Assembly: GCA_009746045.1 (NCBI GenBank)
Contig: RPFO01001678.1
Span: 43,501-107,500 of the forward strand
Source of the DNA: Mesostigma viride
Taxonomy: Eukaryota; Streptophyta; Mesostigmatophyceae; Mesostigmatales; Mesostigmataceae
Length of the DNA stretch: 64,000 nt
Reading direction: 5' to 3'
In this document: piece by piece, positions 6,074 to 43,695 of the stretch
Position numbering within the stretch: the stretch's first letter is position 1
Layout: every line of letters begins with the position of its first letter
The notes under the pieces: model-generated
Told to the model about the DNA's origin: nothing
The model's database searches: none
The model's input: only the letters and a program-made list of their open reading frames with translations
Translations under genes and position numbers: made by a program

Positions 6074-8596
6074 GCGGTGCTGACCGGCAAGCTGGAGAAG
6101 CTGTTCGACATCGCCAAGGGGGCGAATTCGGAGGACTTAGCCGTGGCGGATCGTACGCTGGGCCAGGCGTTGCTTGACGTGTGGAACTACAACAAGCTAT
6201 ATCTATACGGCAAAGTCACGCGTGGGAAGGGCCACTATATTGCGGATGGCCACTACACCAATCTGCTCACGTACATCCTCCCGGCTATGCGGCAAGCGGG
6301 GGGAAGGGAAGGGAATGTGGAGCCGGCAGCGGTGGATGTACACGAGGAGGAAGCAGAAGGAAAGAAAAAGCCGGCCCACAGCATTGCTTCAGTGCATTCC
6401 GCTTACAGTCGCACGCTGGCCAACACGTTTCTCCGTCTGACACAGGAGCAGACTGATGATCCTGCCTCAACGAAACCCGCGCCTGAGGAGGTGATGATGC
6501 AAAGGTGCAAATTCGCGAATGCAGAGGGGGAGAAGAAAGGCCAGAAGGTCTCTTGGACTTCTTTCAGGAACTTGGCCAGCCTTCCTATGATGGACGCCGT
6601 GATCGATTGCATCATGAGCTGCCAGGTTGGACCGGAAAAGCTCACCAAGTTGGTGGAGATCGCCAAGGATGTGCTGGAGTGCCTGCGGCTGACCATTTGC
6701 GCCAGATTCAAGGAGGATGAGACGCTGGAAGCGCAATGCAAGGACGCAAATGGCAAGGAGTTTGTGGCGTCTCATATTTTCGAACTCGTCTTCAATCTCC
6801 ATCCTCTCGCTCGGCCGGTCGGCAGGAAGGAGATTGTGGCCAGATACCGGGAATTTTGGGATGTGGCCGTCATCATAACGAGGAACATCGCCTACCTTCT
6901 TAAAGCCAAAAAACACGCCGCACATCTGAGGATTCCGAGAAAGGATCTCAGTAATGGCAAGATCGACTTTCAGGAGATTCTGCTAAAAGAGAGCGAGGAC
7001 AAGACGGTGGGTTTGGCACTTTTGGCTCCGGAAGCGTTCAGGAAGTACGCTCCAAAAGTTGGATTACTCGAAGGGGGGTGAAGGAGGCGGCGATGAAGGG
7101 GCCGGTGAAGGGGCTGGAGAAGGGGAAGGGGAAGGGGAAGGGGAAGGAGACGGAGGCGAAGAAGGAGGAGGAGGCGAAGGAGGAGGAGGAGTGGGACGTG
7201 AAGTATGAGTGGCAGAGTGTGGACTGGGGCCGTCGCCGGGTCTGGTTTTGCTGTCAGGCTAGACGGTGATGATGATGACAAGTCGCTCGTCAAGCAGGTG
7301 GCAGGCGAGGTTGCCTCAGCTTCAGCCCGCCCCTTTCCCTTGGGCAGGTCCCTTCCGTGCCTGAGCCTGCTGAACTTGGCGAACATTTGGGGTGATAAGT
7401 GGAGTAACTTTCAGAGAGGGTGGTGGGCGTTCGGTCCTTGCCCGACAGCTTCGGACATTCCCCAACCGGGCGGGATGTACGATCATGTGCTGAAGGCTTG
7501 CGCCCACGACTTTTTCTCCAGGTTCGAACCGATGGTGATCGTGTTTGGTACCGAGACGGAGATTAAGGGGTTTCAAGAGATAGTGGAAAGGATCGGGAAA
7601 GGGAGTGAATTGTGGGAGCGGCTTGAACAGGGGGAAGGTGATGGGGGGCCTAGGCTCGGAAGGGCGAAGAAGCGAAAAGCTTCCCACGAAGCTGGGGGAT
7701 CGTCCGCCGTGGTGGAGAGGGATGACCAACAGTTGTTGGAGGGAGGGGATGGAGGGGATGGAGGTCCGGCAGGAGGGTCTAACCGCGGAGAGACCCCCGT
7801 CGAGGTCAGAACGCAGCAGGCCGAACAGATGACGGGGCCTGAAGGTGATTCGGATCCGCCTGCGGCGAAGAAGCCCGCTTCTCAAGTGACTCGACGGGCA
7901 GTCGTGTCACTTGTTGAGGATGATGGAGGTGGGCCTTCCAAGCCTGCCGCGTCGCAGCCCGTTTTTCAGGTTCCGAAGAAGCAGCTTCGGGTTCCCCCGG
8001 CGACTCTGCCCACCCCGGCGCCTCTGCCCAGTTCTCAGGTACCGAAGAAGCAGCTTCGGGTTCCCCCGCCGACTCTGGCCATTTCTCAGGTACCGAAGAA
8101 GCAGCTTCGTAAGCCAGTTGTGGCAGTGGCTGATTCGGACGACGATGCTGAGGAGGAGGAGGAGGAGGAGGACGACGATGCTGAGGAGGAGGAGGGGGAG
8201 GAGGAGGAGGAGGAGGAGGAGGCAGCACGTTGCTACCAAGAAATCCGCCAAGGGTGGGAAGGCTGCGGAGCACGTTGCTTCCAAGAAATCGGCCAAGGTG
8301 GGGAAGCCTCCCAAGCCTGCCCTGCCTCAGAAACGGCGTCGAAAAGCAGTTGTGCTTTCAGATTCGGACGATGAGGAGGAGAAGGAGGAGGAGGATGGCG
8401 GCGGAGAGGAGGAGGACGGGGGAAAGGAGCGCGTTGCTTCCAAGAAGTTACCCAAGACCGCGAAGACTGCCAAGGTTGCCGAGCCCGCCAAACCCGCCCC
8501 GGCGCCTGCCCCCCACCCCCAGACGGGGTCTACCTGCGAGCAGAGGTCGAAGGAAAAGGCCAAAAAGGGTAAGAAAAAATCTGCGAGTGAATTCTG
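6074..8596 (+). CDS. Exon block 8: helical domain, low-complexity linker, acidic tail
   Basis: Starts after GATGTCGCAG. About 335 codons of a clean helical domain (AVLTGKLEKLFDIAKGANSE to 7078) are followed by a Gly/Lys/Glu simple-sequence linker in which the frame changes. A second domain at 7250-7640 includes FEPMVIVFGTETEIKGFQE. Then come three copies of QVPKKQLR (7965-8110), an acidic E/D run, and alternating VASKKSAK and DSDDEEEKEEE blocks up to the GTATGT donor at 8597. The alternating acidic/basic tail is like that of nucleolar or histone-binding proteins. A palindrome copy lies inside coding sequence near 7774. Confidence 0.5.
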
Positions 8597-9254: not shown

Positions 9255-9560
9255 GGGAAAGTTAGCACTTGGACATGCGCTGGCAATGCTCGTCCTATGG
9301 TTAATACAAAGGTTAGGATGATGTCGAGTCTCTCCACGTAAAATTTACATGAATTACTAACTTTCAAGCCTCTCGATGTGGAATGTACGCTCAAATTGAC
9401 ATGAATTAAGCATTATGACACCAAATTAGCTCGAAAATACGCGATCGGACGCCAAATTCGCGCGAAAAAAAGATATCGGACGATTGAAACTAGCGTTTTT
9501 TTCTTGCAAAATGCGCCAAAAATGACCCCATTCCGCGTGGGACCACCCGGGCACTCATGA
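9255..9560. other. AT-rich spacer between unknown gene and DNMT retroelement
   Basis: Non-coding spacer. It includes twice-repeated 'CC(A)AATT(A)GC(T/G)CGAAAA' type phrases around 9420-9470 and no long frame. The right part ends where the truncated retroelement begins. No LTR or TSD for that element is visible here, so its 5' end was lost before or during insertion. Confidence 0.6.
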
Positions 9561-9561
9561 C

Positions 9562-9969
9562 GTGCGCTTCCTTGGGCAGCAGCAGCAGCGCCGCCTCATC
9601 TCACAACATGGCGAGGTAGGGTTGGTCATTGCTGGCTGGGAGTGCCAAGGCATGAGCCAGGCTGGGCATGGCCGGGGCCTTGCCGACAGCAGGAGCGGCC
9701 TATTTTGGGACACGCTGCGCATTGTGGGCGAGCTCCAGCAGCTGCAGCAGGTGCCACCCGCCTACTTATTTGAAAACGTAGTGGCGGTGGACAGTCCCAG
9801 CCCCACTGTTCGGGAGGATTGGGGCACCATTGTGGGTATTTTGGGGGAACTCGTGGTGTCGGACAATGCCGGGCTGGGAGGGAATACCCATCGGCTGCGC
9901 GCGTTCTGGACCAACATCGCTGGCCAAGGTTCTACGCAGGCGGTGAATGGTGATGCAGCATGTCGCTAG
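9562..9969 (+). pseudogene. C5-cytosine DNA methyltransferase, motif IV-VIII part
   Basis: Residues show the catalytic-loop block VIAGWECQGMSQAG followed by GRGLADSRSGLFWDTLRI (motif IV and its helix), then PPAYLFENV (motif VI, ENV) and RLRAFWTNIA (motif VIII, the arginines that contact the flipped base). This is the core of DNMT-type enzymes, which methylate carbon 5 of cytosine using S-adenosylmethionine. The catalytic Cys is kept, but the usual Pro before it is Glu (ECQ instead of PCQ). Motif I, the SAM-binding FxGxG, should lie upstream and is absent because the element is truncated. The frame continues in a different phase from 9947. Confidence 0.85.
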
Positions 9970-12064
9970 CCACATTGAGCTGCCACCGGTCGATGTCGTG
10001 TTGCCCAGTCAACTCACGGCGCAGTATGTGGAGCACGATGATCAGGCAACCTACGCGCCCGTCAACAAGGCAGGCGCCCCCATGCGAGCACTGCCCACCC
10101 TTGTCAGTTACCAAGGGTCCCAGGCTTATCGTGACCGGGGCAAGGGGCTTGTGTGGGAGCGTGCCACAGGTCTCTTGGTTCAGCCACCCGCGGGGTTTCG
10201 TGAACTAAGCATGGGCTTTGCCGAAGGTGCATCCGCCGCCCCAGGGCTCCTGGAGGTGGAGCGATGGTCGCTCATTGGCCAGGCCATGTCAGCCTGGCAG
10301 GTGGGGTACACCTTGCTAGCAGCGCAAGGTGTGCGGAGGGTGCAGCGGGTTGCACTTCCTGTCCATGCTGCGACTGCACAGGCGCAGAGTGACACTTCTC
10401 CACCCACCGGTGCTGCGCCGGCTGGTGTGCCTAAGGCGGAGCGTGCAGGCGGCAGGGGCCAAGGGTGGTCCTACACCTGGCGCCAGGTATGGTCAGTCAT
10501 CCTCATGACTGCGCTCCTCACCAGCTGTGTGTTCTCGGCGGCTCCGGCCTTTCAGTTCCTCGTGGCGAAGGCACACCGGCAGGTGGGAGAGCGAGGCATT
10601 ACGCCGGGAGCGGCGGCATACATGCTGTTTCAGTCGGCGGCCGTGCGCGGTCCCACGGTGGCTGTGCACAATGTCTCGAGCGCAAGCGACCCGGCAGCAA
10701 ACCATCAATGGAGCGTCTGTGAGCACCTCACAGCTGAGCAACGTGCGAAGCTGCTCAAGTGGCTGGAAGGTGCGCGCAACGCGTTTGCATTCAGCAGTCA
10801 AGAGCTGGGATGCTACAATGGTGGGCAGATGCGGGTCCCGCTGGACACCGATCAGCCACTGTTTCGCCGACAACACCGGCTGAGTCAAGCTGAGCTGGAG
10901 TTTGTGCAGCAACAATGCGAGGAGCTGGAGGCTGCTGGCATCATTCGGTCATCCACATCCAACTATGCGGCCGCGACCGTCGTGGCGCCCAAGAAGGATG
11001 CGGTGACAGGTGAATGGACTGGGATGCGCATGGCGACGGACCTGCGGCAACTCAACGCACACACCCCGATGGACAGGTACCCCATGCCGCGAGTGGACGA
11101 TGTGCTTGACCGGATATCGCCACGCGTGCAGTTCATCTCATCCCTAGACCTCCGCAGTGGGTTTCACCAAATCCAAGTGGCGGAGGGTGACCAACGCAAG
11201 CTCGCGTTCTGGGGGGGCCACCGACTCTATGAGTGGGTCAGGATGCCTTTCGGGCATAGGAATGCGAGTGCCATCTTTCAGCGTGCCATGGATCAAGTGT
11301 TGAATGGCATGCCATTCGCTGCGTGTTACATTGATGATGTGATCATCTTCAGTGAGACATTTGAGCAACACCTCCAGCACCTTGAGCAGGTGCGCATGGC
11401 ACTGGCGCGAGCCAACCTAAAGCTGCATCCCGAGAAGTGTCGGTTTGCGCAGCGGAGCCTCGACTTCCTCGGACACCAGATCATTCCTGGCGGCAGAACT
11501 CCACAAGCGGCCAAGGTGGAAGCGATCGTCAACGCGGCAACGCCCACGGATGTGGCGGGTGTGCGGGCTTACCTGGGGCTGGCGGGGTATTACCGAGGTT
11601 ATATCCCCAACTTCAGCACCAAGGTTAAGCCACTGACGGAGCTGTTGAAGAAAGGTGCAGTCTGGGCATGGGGTCCGGCGCAGCAACGCGCCATTGAGAC
11701 CATCAAGGCAGAGCTCACCTCAGCGCCGATACTCCGTCAGCCCAACTATGCCCAGCCATTTGTGCTATACACGGATTGGTCCAGGGTTGGACTTGGTGCT
11801 GTGTTGGCACAGAAGGACGTGCATGGCAAGGAACATGTGGTGGCGTATGCCAGCAGGAGCAACAACACGGCTGAGGCCAAGTACTCATCGTATGAGGGCG
11901 AGGCTCTGGCCGTGCATGGTGTGGGCCATCAAACATTTTCGGCCATACTTGTTCGGGCGTCAGTTCACGCTGGTCACCGACCATCAGCCACTGCAGTGGT
12001 TGATGACAAGTGCCAAGCTGACTGGCAAGCTGGCGCGCTGGGCCATGATTATTCAAGAATATAA
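9947..12064 (+). pseudogene. DNMT C-terminal part, linker, reverse transcriptase and start of RNase H
   Basis: The frame opens with the methyltransferase target-recognition end: MRALPTLVSYQGSQAYR, then FRELSMGFAEG (motif IX type) and RWSLIGQAMSAWQ (motif X). A linker with the hydrophobic stretch VWSVILMTALLTSCVF follows. Gypsy reverse transcriptase then covers about residues 315-515, with LDLRSGFHQIQVAEGD, MPFGHRNASAIFQ and the catalytic CYIDDVIIFS. The tether/RNase H start has VRAYLGLAGYYRGYIPN and LYTDWSRVGLGAVLAQ. The frame is lost near 11925 and RNase H continues in another phase. No aspartic protease motif is visible between methyltransferase and RT. Confidence 0.85.
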
Positions 12065-12563
12065 CATGACCATTGTACACCGCGCTGGGGTGGACCATTC
12101 CAATGCCGATGTCTTATCACGCTATGCTTTGGCAACGTCAGAGGACCGGACGGGGGCGCGAGCGCAGGGCGCGGAGGGACCACAGGGCTCAGTCGTCTTT
12201 GTCAACGCAGCCGGGCCATGCGATTCCGAGTCGCGATGGCTTTCCTGCAGTGATGCCGTGGCGGAGTTTGCGTGCTACGCCAATCCCGTACGGCCAGCGG
12301 CTTTCACGCCATCCCAGGGCGTGATATTTCTTCCTTTGGCTGAAGACACGCTTGCGCAGCCGGTGGATCCGGCGAGCATGGGCTGTGTGGTGCTGCATGC
12401 TGCCGCCAGTCACGCCATTGCGGTGGAGTGCTGCGCTGGGGACGTGTGGCTGGATGGGAGGGTTCTCGAGCGGGTGCAGGGTTTGTCGCCTCTCCAGCCC
12501 CTGCTGACTGGACACCGACGCAGAGGCAAGCCGAGCAAGAGCGCGTGGAGCGCCGGGCTGTGA
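11925..12563 (+). pseudogene. RNase H remainder of the DNMT-gypsy element
   Basis: Continues RNase H in a second phase with FTLVTDHQPLQWLM, LARWAMIIQEYNMTIVHRAG and HSNADVLSRYAL, the usual end of a Ty3/gypsy RNase H. A poorly conserved linker follows. The phase is lost again near 12500, where the integrase N-terminus starts in a third phase. The joins show a decayed copy rather than programmed shifts. Confidence 0.8.
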
Positions 12564-13978
12564 ATTATACCTGGGAGGGCAACCAGGTCTACAAGCTTGT
12601 GGGGCGCTGCAAGCTGGTCGTGCCGCCCCCTGACAAGCGTGCTGCCCTCGTTGCACATTACCATGAGCGGTTCGGGCACATGGGTGCAAACCGCACAGGT
12701 GCCATGGTGCGTGGGGTCTATTGGTGGGCGGGTATGAAGCATGCCATCGCACGGCAGGTAGCCAGTTGTGCTGAGTGTGCTCGCGCGAAAGCGCGTTTCA
12801 ACCTGAACCATCATGACAAGGAGCTCATGAGCTTGCCCATCCGGGGCTTGTTCTACCGGTGGCACGTCGACTTGTGTGGGCCCTTTGAGCTCAGCACTTC
12901 TGGCAACCGTTACGTCATGGTGTGTGTGGAATCGTTCAGCAAGTGGCTGGAACTGATTCCCCTACCCGACAAGCACGCCGCCACCACAGCCACCTACTTC
13001 CTGGATGTTATTGCTCGGTATGGGGCACCGGCGGAGGTGGTTTCAGACCAAGGCGGGGAATTTCGTGGGGAATTCCAAGAGCTATTGGATTCCTGCTCCA
13101 TCGATCATCGGCACACGTCGCGGGAGCACCCTCAGGCCAATGGACTGGCTGAGCGTTTGGTTCAGACAGTCAAACAGGCGCTGCGCAAATGGGCGTTGCA
13201 AGCAGCACGTGTGGCCACCTGGGATAGGGAACTACCCTGGATCGCCATGGGCTACCGGATGAGCCCACAAGAATCCCTCGCCCAGTTCTCCCCCTATTTT
13301 CTGCTCTTTGGTCGGGCACCATTGTTGCCCTCTGAGGTGCAGGAAGCTCACCCCCAGCCGATTCAATGGGATGACGCCAATGAGTGGCTGCGGGAGGTTG
13401 TGGCGCGCGCCGCCACATTTAAGAAGGTGATGCCCATCGCGATGAACAATCTGTTGATCGCGCAGCACCGCGACACACTGCGGTACGCCCAGCGACGGGG
13501 TGGCAAGTATATGGCCAGGCGGCTGCAGTTCCACCCCGGCCAGTATGTGTTTCTACGGACTCAACCCCAACACACGCTGGACGTCACGGCCGGGCCCACC
13601 ATCCTTCGCATTGTGGAGATTAAGCCTTCGGGGGTGGCCATCCTCGAAGGTGCGGATGGTAGTAAGACCACTGACAATGTGTCGAACCTGTCTCCTTGCT
13701 CCATGCCCCACCAGGCACGGAGCATCCAGCCGCACACCGCTAGGCGCATCCGCGATGCGCAGTGTCAAATTTGTCACCGGGTCGACCAGCCTGAGGTCAT
13801 GTTGCTGTGTGATCACTGCAACTGCGGCTGGCATCTTCACTGCCTTCAACCCCCTCTGTCTCAGGTACCTGAGGGTTCCTGGTTCTGCCCTGTGTGCATT
13901 GCTGCGGGGTTCACCACCCATGCGATTCAAGCAGCTACTGCCACTTTGTTGCTCGCTACCCAGCAAAGGACTTGGTAG
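12510..13978 (+). pseudogene. Integrase with C-terminal PHD finger
   Basis: An HHCC zinc-binding N-terminus is visible: HYHERFGHMG then CAECARAKA. The catalytic core has WHVDLCGPF (first Asp), SDQGGEFRGEF (second Asp) and HPQANGLAERL (Glu). A C-terminal region with MARRLQFHPGQYVFLRT is like the DNA-binding GPY/F zone. The last 70 residues form a PHD finger with the full C4-H-C3 pattern: CQIC, CDHC, GWHLHC and FCPVC. PHD fingers read histone H3 tails. In this position chromoviruses normally carry a chromodomain, so the PHD may steer integration to marked chromatin. The terminal stop is intact. Confidence 0.85.
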
Positions 13979-13981
13979 CGA

Positions 13982-14060
13982 GGGGGGGGAGAAAAGTGGG
14001 CAGCACTAGTGGGGTAAGGCTAGCATGTGGCCCATCGATCACTCATGCAGCCATACCTCA
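13982..14060 (+). promoter_or_regulatory. Polypurine tract and start of 3' LTR of the DNMT-gypsy element
   Basis: A run of G and A (13982-13996) just after the pol stop is followed by TGGGCAGCACTAG, a typical PPT/LTR junction. Fewer than about 100 bases of the LTR remain before copia gag sequence starts, so the LTR is truncated by the next element. Confidence 0.55.
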
Positions 14061-14129
14061 TGAGGGCCAACGAGGTCGTGGGCTACTGTCAGTGCAGGGA
14101 GTTTGGCACGAGTACGCGACAGGGGGGGT

Positions 14130-14760
14130 GTTGGCAGACAATGATTTTGCCGCTGCGCTGAAAGGTGGTTTACCTGATGCGTATAGGCCTGCCCTCGTTT
14201 CAACCAGGTTCGATGAGGACATGTCGCTGCTGGAGGTGAAGAAGGCCATGCTTGAAGCAGATGACCTGCTTGTGGGGACGCGCTCCACCACCATGGTCAA
14301 GCCTGAGCCAGCAGCTGCCCAAGGCCAAGCATACAGCACAGGCCAACCAACCAAGCCGGGGAGGCCGACTTGCACATTCTGCGGAAAGGAAGGACATGCA
14401 GAGGAGACGTGCTATACCAAGTACCCACATCTCAGCAGGAAGAAGGGCCAGCAGAGGCCAAAGCGCAAGAACCAGAAGAAGAAGCAGGCTGCGACAGCGA
14501 ACAACACGGTGGAGGCTCCTGAGCTTCCCGTGGACTACGCGTTTGCAACTACGCGCCTAGTGCCGGGCGTACCTTTCTGGATTCTGGACTCTGCTGCATC
14601 CAGCCACATGAGCCCTGAGGAGGCTGACTTTATCAAGGTTCAGCCAACCGGCAACCTGGCCATCCAGGGCTCCGGAGGCCGGCTGAAGGCTGTGGGGACG
14701 GGGACGCTCAAGCTACGAGTCGCCAACAAGGTGCATGGTGCATCTGCCTCATGCTCTGCA
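14130..14760 (+). pseudogene. copia gag C-terminus and protease start
   Basis: Gag is recognised by DFAAALKGGLPDAY and the knuckle CTFCGKEGHAEETC (CX2CX4HX4C, nucleic-acid binding). It is followed by a Lys/Gln-rich linker and the protease active site WILDSAASSHM, with DSA in place of DTG as is common in copia. The protease continues as IQGSGGRLKAVGTG, then the frame fails near 14740. It would cleave the polyprotein in intact relatives. Confidence 0.8.
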
Positions 14761-16320
14761 CGTGCCCTCTCTGGGTGCAAGGCTTCTTTCCGTGGCCCAG
14801 CTACATCAGAAGGGACACGAGGTGAACCTACTGCAGGGCGTGGCATGCTTTGCGGGCAGCAAGGTACCTATCAAGGTGCAGAACAACGTCTACGGTTTGC
14901 AAGAATCACAGACTGTGACTACCCCTGCTGCCCACCACACCACAGACAACCCTGCTGCACTATTGTGGAACTGGCGACTTGGACATGCAGGTGCTGAGCG
15001 CATTCGCAAGCTGGCGGCCATACCTGCATCGAACATTACCATGCGGGCTCCAGGTGCGCCAGGCTGCCCGTCGTGCCCTGCTGGCATGATTAGGCGACGC
15101 TCCTTCGCTGCTGGGCAACCACGCTCGACCGTGCCTCGTGCCAAGCTGCATGGGGACATGATTCATGAGGCCGATGCAGCCATCACTGGGCGGTTCCCAG
15201 TACATTCTGGGCATCACTGACGACGCTACAAGGTGGCGTTGGTCTTTTCCTATGCGCCAGAAGAGTGAGGTGCACTTCGACCGACTGCTGTCAAGGGATA
15301 TCAGGCCCTACTACGACGGTTCTGTGCTTCTAAGGACCGACAATGACGCAGTATTTCTTTCCGAGGACTTCCGCTCCCTCTGTGCTCGCCATCGAGTTCA
15401 CCAAGAATTTTCCAGCCCCTACTGTCCGCAGCAAAACGGAGTTGCGGAACGCATGTGGGGTTTGGCGATGGGAATGACACTGTGCATGCTGCACTATGCT
15501 ACCCTGCCCAATTAAGACTTTCTGGGCCCTAGCTTTTGCGTGTGCTGTCTACCTGCTCAATCGGCTGCCATGCGAGGCCAATGCAGACTCTGCTAGCCCT
15601 CATCGCCTTTTTCAAGGCGTTGATGCCGACCTGTCGCACTTGCGCATTTTCGGCTGCCCTGCCTACTTTCGTGTAGAAGGGCCACGTGGCAAGCTGGAGG
15701 ACAAAGCCCAGGCTGGAATCTTTGTGGGCTATGACTTGGAGTTGCCTGCTTACCTGATTCTCCGCCCAGGCTCACGTGACGTTATTCGCAGGCTCCATGT
15801 GTCATTCGATGAGACTTGGCGAGCGAATTCTGCTCCCCTGCACGTCGCGAGTCCAGATGTCAACTTCCAGCTGCCGGCACCTGAGTCTGCCTCGGAATCT
15901 GGCGTGGCGCTGGTACCTTCGCCTGCACCCACTGAGCCTGAAGTGCTGCCGCCTGTCACTGCTGTGCCTGACTCGGTACCTGATGGTCCGGTCGCCAGGG
16001 CCAAGGCTCGCCAACAGCTGGGCACTGTCACCGGTGCAGACGGCAGTGGCAACGCTGAGCATCCTGGTCCGGGTGCTGCTCCTGACTCTGCAATTTCTGA
16101 CGCGGTGCCGGACGCCGGCAACCAAGTTGCGCCAGGAGTTCCTGCGCCCTCGCCTGCGCCTGCGCCTCAAATTTCGAGTGCAACGGCTTTGCAGCAAGCC
16201 ATCCACGCACTGCAGCGACCTTCATCTTCAGCGCCCAGCAACCAGGCAGGGGCGGATTCGGTGATAGCTGCTGCAACGATTGAGGAAAATGTTGGCGATC
16301 GATGGCTACTGTCCCTCTAG
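14735..16320 (+). pseudogene. copia pre-integrase and integrase in three phases
   Basis: Gag-pre-integrase: LLWNWRLGHAGAERIRKLA and CPSC. Integrase core: ILGITDDATRW (Asp), LLRTDNDAVFLSEDF (Asp) and YCPQQNGVAERMWG (Glu), the copia DDE signature. After a TAA at 15513-15515 the integrase tail continues in another phase with FWALAFACAVYLLNRLPC and HLRIFGCPAYFRVEG, followed by a Pro/Ala/Ser-rich linker up to TAG at 16318-16320. No single frame spans it, so it is a pseudogene. Confidence 0.8.
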
Positions 16321-18066: not shown

Positions 18067-18874
18067 TGTTTGAATTGGGAGAGGAGACTAATGGGTTTTA
18101 CACAATGCCTTGTGCTTGGCCTTGCTACCCACACACCTTGCAGGTGCTGAAAGAAAGAGAGGTTGAAGACAATTTACGTGGAAGAATAAATGGCTTTATT
18201 AGAATATAATAGTTGGAGAAGAGCTTGAATGGAGGTTGAATGGAGGTACCTGCCCTTAGGGGGCAGTTTCCTTTTATACCTTTTTGGCTAGGAAGGATGA
18301 CATCAGCAATGACATCATCACAGAAGCTTGTAGAAACATCCTAGCATATTCCTAGCATATTCCCAGCATATTCTCAGTATATTCCAGGAATATTCCTGGC
18401 ATATTCTTAGAACATTCCTAGAACATTCTAGACATGATCCAATGAGCTGGCATAATAGCTAGATGCCAAGTGTCTACGTAATAATGTGCCACATAACATG
18501 ATTAATAAAGTGACACATCTCTTCTCCTTGGAGTGACAAGTGTCATGCAATGAGTCTACCCACTTGTCATCATGTAAGTGATAACATGTGTCATCATGAG
18601 CTGCCAACACTTGTCAGCTCATGGACCAAACACTTGTCCAATAGGCCATAGCACCACTTGTCAATCAAATACGTGATGCTACTAGGCTGACTCAGGTTAC
18701 AAGTCATCCATGTCCAAGTATAGGACTATGGCACATGAATATTGATCAGCTCATTGAGCCCAATTCATCTAGCTTATCAAAGCTATCAAATTCCCAGTCC
18801 ATATGGAATAAATCCAACAAGAAATAAATCAGGCTGGGATATATTGTGGCCAGGTGGATATAATATCCCTAACA
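18067..18874 (-). repeat. 3' LTR of the non-autonomous element
   Basis: 808 bases, matching 21764-22573 with only a few differences (for example TTTTTGG versus TTTTAGG near 18285, and a 2-base indel near 18440). It contains a run of related 'CATATTCC/TAGCATATTC' phrases around 18350-18430 and repeated 'CACTTGTCA' words. Confidence 0.93.
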
Positions 18875-42721: not shown

Positions 42722-43695
42722 CCTGTGACGATGCTTGTGAAAGTGGGGGGTCAGCATGCTTTGGCTCTCTTGAAAGTTGTAAAGTTAATTAGAGGTACCA
42801 ACAACACGTGCGGGTGGAAAGTGGTCAGTTCCCACTATTACATCCCAACAATTCGGTGATAACGGGGGTGCTGATGCAGTAGAACTTATGAAAGGTTAAT
42901 TATATCTTAATAGAAAAAAAGCCGAACAAAACAAGACATATTATTTCAAAATCACTCTGACACTTCCTTTCAAAAATTAAATAAAATATGAAGACATCCA
43001 AAAATCGAACAAAAGATCGTTTTAATTCTTTTCCTTTTTTTAATGGCAAATTTTAGATAGTTGGTTAGTTAGGGAAAAAAAAGCTTCAAGCACGTTTTAT
43101 TCATCCAGTGAAAGGTGGTTTCCGCGTTGCTCTTCAAGGTAATATTGCGTTTCTTCCCCGCAGTAAAAGAAAAAAAAAAAAAGGAAAACGTTACCAATTG
43201 TTGAAGATGGAGTTGGCATGTTTACATGGCAGCCTAAAGAGGTTGGGAAGCAGGAGGTAACATTTCCGCCAACACTCGTGAACTGACAGAACGCCATCTC
43301 CATGGGAACCAAGCTTGCGTCAGACGAGATGGCAGTTGGTTTCTTAAACAAGAAGATCTGTGTGCAGTCTTTGAGGCAACTTTGCTCTGACACCTCAAGT
43401 TCAAAGTCGGATCTTTTGTCGCTGCATTGGTCCGGCAAGTTTCCTTATCCGAGAGCAGATAATGCCGTCCCGTGGCTATGCACTGGGGTGCCATCGCAAG
43501 CTGCGGCAGATGTCGTGGCTCCTCCAAAGGCTGGCTTAGAGCGTGATGTGCATTGTCCTACATGCGATTCTATGATGAAGGTGACTGCCCTCTGTACACA
43601 CGTGGCGAGGCACTTGTTTGAAACTGGACTTGATGGAATGTCAGTGTGAGGGATTGTGCCCTGTCCACGGGAGAGCTGTGGATTTTGCAGCCAAT
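42722..43695 (+). other. AT-rich segment with a short Cys/His-containing frame
   Basis: 42880-43190 is AT-rich and empty. A 115-codon plus frame at 43302-43649 has CPTCDSMMKVTALCTHVARHLFE near its end, which could be a zinc-binding fragment, but there is no second copy or context to support a gene. It ends just before the LTR at 43696. Confidence 0.3.

Follow-up and report, generated by a model that had tools for sequence, protein, structure and literature searches.

A Ty3/gypsy retrotransposon of Mesostigma viride with a Dnmt3-like methyltransferase and a PHD finger in one polyprotein, and its relatives in green algae

The stretch of DNA analyzed here (the window; 64,000 nucleotides, positions 43,501 to 107,500 of the forward strand of contig RPFO01001678.1, assembly GCA_009746045.1) comes from the streptophyte alga Mesostigma viride and carries a Ty3/gypsy retrotransposon copy that is dead and lacks its 5' part; very similar copies of this family have complete frames. 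A DNA methyltransferase (DNMT), gypsy reverse transcriptase, RNase H, integrase and PHD finger had been claimed in this order by an initial annotation made from the sequence alone, and both a Pfam search, run on each open frame of the window separately, and the location of all motifs quoted agree with it (Table 1). The C5-methylase profile PF00145, proposed there as a check, matched in open frame 9,526-9,969 (40 bits, E 4.3e-10), RVT_1 (105 bits) and RNase H in open frame 9,947-12,064, and H2C2 (53 bits), rve (49 bits) and the PHD profile PF00628 (36.3 bits, E 5.8e-9) in open frame 12,344-13,978. Frame 1 contains AGWECQG (9,631-9,651), LFENVVA (9,766-9,786) and RLRAFWTN (9,892-9,915), and frame 2 contains FRELSMGF (10,196-10,219), LIGQAMS (10,271-10,291) and YIDD (11,327-11,338); the five DNMT motifs correspond to IV, VI, VIII, IX and X. 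The second half of RNase H is held in frame 3 and the PHD cysteines (13,763-13,897) again in frame 2. The copy was rightly described as truncated and frameshifted: its start lies inside the DNMT, motif I and gag are missing, and three shifts take the reading frame from 1 to 2 between DNMT motifs VIII and IX, from 2 to 3 inside RNase H and back to 2 ahead of the integrase. An element does lie at the span first given, 9,562 to 13,978, while its extent by DNA similarity is wider, 9,549-14,121, ending in GCGACA.

Table 1. Parts of the retrotransposon copy in the window (window positions)
Feature	Position	Strand	Basis
Family A gypsy element, 5'-truncated	9549..14121	+	99.2% DNA identity to L039:4354-8920; 3' terminus GCGACA genuine
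Dnmt3-like C5-methyltransferase, motifs IV-X, without motif I	9550..10291	+	PF00145 40 bits; motif places
Reverse transcriptase core, YIDD	10988..11482	+	RVT_1 E 5.6e-30
RNase H, split over two frames	11669..12062	+	RT_RNaseH_2 and RT_RNaseH in frames 9947-12064 and 11649-12563
Integrase, H2C2 zinc-binding and DDE core (rve)	12623..13132	+	PF17921 E 3.2e-14, PF00665 E 8.1e-13
C4HC3 PHD finger, 3' of the integrase C-terminal part	13763..13897	+	PF00628 E 5.8e-9; PDB matches of the L039 PHD finger
Polypurine tract, start of repeat B	13980..13996	+	sequence GAGGGGGGGGAGAAAAG
Repeat B, terminal-repeat piece	13990..14121	+	95.6% to B of L056

Intact relatives had been predicted elsewhere in the genome, and copies with complete frames, including a complete DNMT domain, were indeed recovered with an integrase-PHD query (best 80 of 3,331 candidates scored) and a DNMT query (106 of 526 scored). 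The reference copy of family A, L039, has a gag-type frame of 1,017 amino acids, in which a CCHC motif matches weakly (E 0.004, short of the Pfam cut-off), separated by one in-frame UGA (L039:3842-3844) from a pol frame of 1,642 amino acids in which the DNMT (107-249 by Pfam, 106-406 by our own profile), reverse transcriptase (648-812), RNase H (875-1004), integrase (1192-1361) and PHD finger (1572-1616) follow one another. In the reference copy of family B, L040, a gag-type frame of 615 amino acids without a Pfam match overlaps pol in another frame; pol itself spans 2,074 amino acids and holds weak CCHC and aspartyl-protease (E 0.1) matches, DNMT, reverse transcriptase, RNase H, integrase and PHD finger (2005-2049). 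At several family B places the integrase-PHD search gave a frame of 2,112 amino acids, while direct translation of L040 gives 2,074. In a third subfamily, C (L067), the frame begins inside the DNMT, and a family B copy with a 2,074-amino-acid frame lies on the contig of the window itself (G000:C1500:14360-15478), about 28 kb before the window start. The pairing of a cytosine-methylation writer with a PHD finger in one mobile polyprotein, and within one frame, is thus realized in single open frames of L039 and L040, and the anatomy of the element (gag plus a DNMT-reverse transcriptase-RNase H-integrase-PHD pol) is proposed with very high confidence. The order reverse transcriptase-RNase H-integrase with a DDE core is that of Ty3/gypsy elements.

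A side-by-side placement of fragments from a host methyltransferase gene, a gypsy element and a host PHD gene, by chance or artefact, would suit the state of the window copy, which is incomplete, frameshifted and followed directly after the gypsy terminus by Copia-type frames (window 14122-16320, with Pol_BBD, rve and an SH3-like domain). The probability of such an accident is negligible in view of copies on many contigs, of at least 6 rows of the DNMT query in the 1,642-amino-acid frame of family A and at least 28 in the 2,074-amino-acid frame of family B, and of the same parts in database relatives of other species. The initial annotation would have been undone if no other copy joined a DNMT to this reverse transcriptase; apart from the window, 79 integrase-PHD places were scored, and no fewer than 49 of them have a DNMT at most 6 kb upstream on the same strand, 45 of these at 2.05-2.15 kb. 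Of the first 19 places (95-99% identity), 14 or more have one. These counts are lower bounds, 86 of the 106 DNMT rows having entered the pairing.

Relatives were also sought in a protein collection, where the DNMT region found 6 matches and the integrase-PHD region 322 at E<=1e-10. Precomputed annotation placed PF00628 in 119 and PF00145 in 24 of the best 120 of these 322, the PHD share being biased upward by a query that itself contained the PHD finger. Among jgi/Mesvir1 proteins compared with the L039 DNMT were P0133 (99% over 67% of the query), P0146 (79% over 61%) and P0160 (97% over 25%). Five architecture profiles, iterated on the same set and each without any match to shuffled proteins, were then applied to 128 proteins (126 from the database and two from Mesostigma) and located a DNMT in 94 and a PHD finger in 125. 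The most frequent order was RT-RH-DNMT-IN-PHD (RT, reverse transcriptase; RH, RNase H; IN, integrase) with 53 proteins, followed by DNMT-IN-PHD (26), RT-RH-IN-PHD (22), IN-PHD (10), DNMT-RT-RH-IN-PHD (6, both Mesostigma families among them), RH-DNMT-IN-PHD (5), DNMT only (2), RH-IN-PHD (2), RT-DNMT-IN-PHD (1) and DNMT-RT-RH-IN (1). Two positions of the DNMT can be distinguished, a middle one in the gap between RNase H and integrase (85 proteins) and a front one before the reverse transcriptase (7, including the remnant in P0125). The named middle rows come from Haematococcus lacustris (3), Chlamydomonas reinhardtii, Volvox reticuliferus and Pleodorina starrii, and the named front rows from Mesostigma; in Closterium P0153 a CCHC knuckle precedes a gag-linked DNMT and the fragment contains no reverse transcriptase. 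With few named hosts, it is no more than a suggestion that the two positions follow the split between chlorophytes and streptophytes. The writer-reader pairing recurs across wide sequence divergence in database proteins, of which the named ones come from green algae, a stronger case than the initial annotation supposed.

Taken alone, the L039 DNMT has DNMT3A as its best PDB match (E 4.6e-4). A profile built from nine retroelement DNMTs gave DNMT3A (6.7e-15), 4onj (2.1e-12; deposited as 'DNA methyltransferase' and taken by us to be a plant DRM), DRM2 (1e-8), HaeIII (3.7e-8), HhaI (about 2e-7) and DNMT2 (0.12). By similarity, then, the domain is of the Dnmt3 class, with DNMT3A the nearest among solved structures. 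Motifs I to IX were counted over the alignment and motif X was located in L039, L040 and the window copy; GWECQ and GWPCQ are the usual readings of motif IV. Of 84 aligned domains, 76 retain the catalytic cysteine, 77 the ENV-type glutamate and 79 the first arginine of RLR.

The distance between the end of the integrase profile and the PHD finger is nearly fixed (90-101 amino acids). Chromoviruses are gypsy elements with an integrase-linked chromodomain; they share with the present family a histone-reader domain behind the gypsy integrase, whereas here a PHD finger replaces the chromodomain and a DNMT is added. Pfam found no chromodomain behind the integrase in the window frames or in the L039 and L040 frames, the PHD finger standing there instead. 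The L039 finger matches BAZ2B best in PDB (2e-15), then CHD4, BAZ2A, lid, WSTF, JARID1D and ATXR5, several of which read histone H3 unmethylated at K4. The full C4HC3 pattern is present in 121 of the 125 PHD fingers; at the alignment column that we take to be the methyl-lysine cage position of K4me3 readers, none of these 121 has tryptophan and 112 have glycine. The finger therefore resembles, as far as its residues can tell, readers of unmethylated H3K4.

How the DNMT came to occupy two positions was approached with unrooted trees, in which P0078 forms a long branch; the DNMT trees were built of element sequences. A FastTree of 126 integrases gathered all seven front rows in one clade of 27 (support 98), together with 18 rows that have no DNMT in the middle position and two short ones. 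A quick IQ-TREE of 76 DNMTs (those without the catalytic cysteine excluded) has one branch (95) that parts seven front or gag-linked domains from 69 middle ones, and after addition of 26 of 35 extra DNMT matches (nine were too short) the front domains and the extras were separated from 71 middle ones by a branch of 99. These trees fit a single DNMT lineage that would have been relocated inside pol; two captures from one source are the alternative. Locus L140 shows why some pols of the front clade are without a DNMT: a 1,162-amino-acid frame with a DNMT in its later part and one in-frame stop precede a reverse transcriptase-RNase H-integrase-PHD frame. P0001 combines a precomputed protease match (PF13975) with a DNMT and has no reverse transcriptase. 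The first and second frames are separated in three ways in this clade, by a UGA before the DNMT (L039), by an overlap before the CCHC motif (L040) and by a stop between DNMT and reverse transcriptase (L140).

The record of L140 (CADCWO010000201.1) is named as a metagenome-assembled genome of a Synechococcales cyanobacterium, in which five more places match the integrase query weakly; contamination of this assembly by an alga is most likely. A bacterial source of the DNMT was rejected: 75 of 76 genome-contig loci matched at E 7e-10 or worse, and the exception was L140 (42%, E 3e-66), a DNMT-PHD gypsy element of front type, like those of green algae. A viral source was rejected likewise, all 72 loci of the viral-contig search being weak (22-49% identity over parts, best E 6e-10). 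Prorocentrum lima contributed one short DNMT match (P0161, 69% over 23%), possibly a contamination.

The closest known element is KnitGypsy-Dnmt3 of Klebsormidium nitens (de Mendoza 2018, PMC5890265; statements on this paper refer to its text, figures aside), which bears out the charophyte DNMT capture that the initial annotation cited as precedent. It likewise has a gypsy long terminal repeat (LTR) pol, a Dnmt3-class DNMT, A-coding-B-A-B repeats and a streptophyte algal host, and the Mesostigma element shares the Dnmt3-class DNMT in a gypsy pol and the DIRS-like repeats. The words PHD, Mesostigma, Chlamydomonas, chlorophyte and target site duplication are absent from that text, and its authors see the K. 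nitens lineage as having made the capture independently (PMC5890265). In contrast to a single lineage, both Mesostigma and chlorophytes have gypsy elements with a DNMT in the present data, and Closterium has a gag-linked one. The matches listed in three protein searches (in one of them the best 120 of 322) include none under the name K. nitens. SymbioDIRS-Dnmt3 and SymbioLINE-Dnmt are retroelements with captured DNMTs as well, the DIRS type with Dnmt3 in pol and in two domain orders; they differ in belonging to other retroelement classes, with tyrosine recombinase or LINE machinery, and in their dinoflagellate hosts (PMC5890265). For the prasinophyte Cymbomonas tetramitiformis, very high coverage scaffolds with cytosine DNA methyltransferase homology, thought to be repeat-associated, were reported in 2015; the likeness is one of description only, and the accessible part of that paper describes no element structure, gypsy pol or PHD finger (PMC5741210). 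Among the titles and abstract openings listed from the openly available literature, which leaves subscription papers and Repbase outside its scope, none apart from PMC5890265 dealt with gypsy elements that carry a DNMT or a PHD finger in chlorophytes or Mesostigma.

The integrated unit of family A reads A1 (1,128 bp)-coding-B1 (about 136 bp)-A2-B2, with a short form A-coding-B. Its outer ends start with TGTC and finish with GCGACA, and every family A copy seen with the B1/A2 joint has GCGACA-GC-TGTCGC there (the palindrome is written GCGACAGCTGTCGC), family B having GCGACA-GC-TGTCAC. Eight copies were examined with their 5' side; C777 and C1837 had no intact start and the 3' end of C1690 fell outside the locus, and all five testable copies are flanked by 4-bp target duplications, which are GGCC (C1613), CTTG (C2100) and AGTT (C2200) for the long form and TACT (C1579) and AACC (C224, family B) for the short form. 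L015, L020, L024, L027 and the window copy end at B1 without A2; since the DNA after GCGACA in the window is not A2, its end is of the A-coding-B type. The A2|B2 junction varies like the joined LTR ends of an LTR circle: 12 copies show eight forms, including a deletion that reaches into A. A polypurine tract marks the start of B1, and TCCACACAGAGCT, directly after A1, is the reverse complement of a stretch at position 884 of A (13-nt match). As a primer site, this sequence would pair with a part of the element's own RNA that lies further upstream, an arrangement known from Tf1, a self-primed LTR retrotransposon with normal LTR ends and neither DNMT nor PHD finger. TG..CA ends and a short target duplication are thus present as in Ty3/gypsy elements, and two identical LTRs at the outer ends are not; on the favoured reading the only complete LTR is B1-A2. 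A plain-LTR reading, which had drawn on a 64-bp match in L039, was dropped, the 5' side of L039 being truncated.

Two routes to this repeat order were weighed. In the one that we favour, the real LTR would be B+A, bounded by the polypurine tract and the self-complementary primer site; reverse transcription would yield a normal linear cDNA, whose LTRs would then be joined in a circle. The integrase would open the circle within the LTR, at GCGACA-GC-TGTCGC, whose central GC would be lost, so that one-LTR circles would give A-coding-B and two-LTR circles A-coding-B-A-B. The chances of this route being right seem roughly even. Its main rival is a DIRS/PAT-like origin, in which reverse transcription would jump between templates at the split repeats and no circle would be opened by an integrase. 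The repeat order is indeed that of DIRS, and KnitGypsy-Dnmt3 was so described (PMC5890265), but a DDE integrase, TG..CA ends and 4-bp duplications are present, the A2|B2 junction is variable, the two short copies have duplications of their own, and Pfam, with matches admitted up to E 10, gave no tyrosine recombinase for the gag or pol frames of L039 and L040. Template jumping is accordingly judged somewhat unlikely.

Two further steps complete the proposed life cycle. The PHD finger would bind H3 tails unmethylated at K4 and steer insertion in the manner of chromovirus chromodomains, and the DNMT would methylate the cDNA or the fresh insertion. Both the targeting and the self-marking are put forward tentatively, each a little short of an even chance. 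In Mesostigma viride 5-methylcytosine has been reported, with CG as the most abundant site, in the part of PMC6947507 available. Changes of C>T or G>A fall at CpG in 54 of 140 cases, CpG making up 23% of C/G positions; this count, pooled over 34 overlapping sequences with the reference copy and the window locus each entered twice, would give at best weak support to methylation of the copies. As a whole, the explanation combining a dead window copy, circle insertion, PHD targeting and DNMT marking is considered moderately probable.

Several points weigh against it. Retroviral integrases use linear ends, so that use of a circle, a route rejected for retroviruses, would be unusual; the duplications of the short form were tested in two copies only. 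CpG is not depleted in the element (observed/expected 0.78, against 0.69 in the window). Because family B has a weak aspartyl-protease match, its polyprotein is probably cut by a protease, and writer and reader may therefore reside on different molecules and not act as one. The protease-like stretch reads LDSG in the L040 pol frame and LDGG in the L039 gag frame; the family A protease may be altered. Eight of the 84 aligned DNMTs lack the catalytic cysteine: P0044, P0048, P0053, P0063, P0065, P0075 and P0100, in one group with C. reinhardtii, Volvox and Pleodorina, have another residue there, and P0094, elsewhere in the tree, has a gap. The domain without the cysteine is still recognizable (261 bits in P0053), and the front-type P0125 retains a DNMT remnant only (24 bits). 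Since these cases are scattered, catalysis has, to judge from the alignment, been lost more than once.

Retention of the domain without its cysteine, together with the varying place of the DNMT and its varying position relative to a stop or frameshift, would suit a functional DNMT and PHD finger of which the DNMT acts in trans against host silencing, or as a nucleic-acid-binding scaffold, and leaves the element's own cDNA unmarked. This alternative is unlikely, as the cysteine and most of the other motifs are kept in the great majority of domains and the Dnmt3 domains of Symbiodinium retroelements methylate CG in yeast (PMC5890265). For the Klebsormidium retroelement Dnmt3 no methylation was seen in yeast, a result that the authors call inconclusive (PMC5890265).

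It can also be asked whether the DNMT and the PHD finger are passengers without present function in Mesostigma, the copies spreading regardless. Elements without a DNMT also spread, and 30 of the 79 integrase-PHD places have no upstream DNMT match, a figure that further weakens the favoured explanation and is partly an effect of which matches were listed. Most synonymous sites differ between families A and B; amino-acid identity nevertheless is 66% in the DNMT and 72% in the PHD finger, and both domains recur over the relatives, so that mere passengers are very unlikely. The proportions of nonsynonymous and synonymous differences (pN/pS) between the families are 0.231/0.745 for the DNMT, 0.140/0.788 for the reverse transcriptase, 0.080/0.812 for RNase H, 0.182/0.800 for the integrase, 0.188/0.757 for the PHD finger and 0.363/0.814 for the linker between DNMT and reverse transcriptase. 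Saturation of the synonymous sites, another point to be set against our reading, makes dN/dS ratios unusable, and only the low pN in the domains counts. Family A was active recently: several loci show 0-3 differences from L039 in about 4,100 sites, and A1 and A2 are identical along 1,128 bp in C1613 and at 1,125 of 1,127 positions in another copy.

The same assembly holds a second C5-methylase with a GFPCQ motif (170 bits to PF00145 in L002), which occurs at ten places with equal score and frame length, on contigs C35, C47, C64, C79, C340, C389, C815, C1517, C1809 and C1935 (loci L002-L008). Six of the seven loci examined lie on contigs of 22-44 kb and one on a contig of 704 kb, and three neighbouring frames in L002 are without a Pfam match; this is possibly an endogenous viral or other repeat. 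Elsewhere in the window, purine-rich GAG/GAAG tracts lie upstream of the element (7070-7224 and 8123-8429), and an overlapping inverted repeat of ATATTC-like units, 77% complementary, lies at 18352-18431.

In its widest form the proposal is of an ancient green-algal gypsy clade with a de novo type DNMT and an H3K4me0-type PHD finger in one polyprotein, which possibly predates the chlorophyte/streptophyte split, relocated its DNMT inside pol and integrates as an LTR circle opened at an internal palindrome; so far-reaching a combination is offered as a tentative idea, leaning towards the doubtful. If true, a transposon lineage would long have carried a DNA-methylation writer and a histone-tail reader, the combination that hosts use for transposon silencing; the DNMT3 catalytic domain with its ADD reader is the proposed host counterpart of the mobile pairing. 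Single-lineage capture, as proposed for Klebsormidium, would be put in question. Related elements with live and with cysteine-less DNMTs, as in the Chlamydomonas/Volvox group, would offer natural pairs for asking what an element gains from methylating DNA, and the repeat structure would make integration from LTR circles directly testable.

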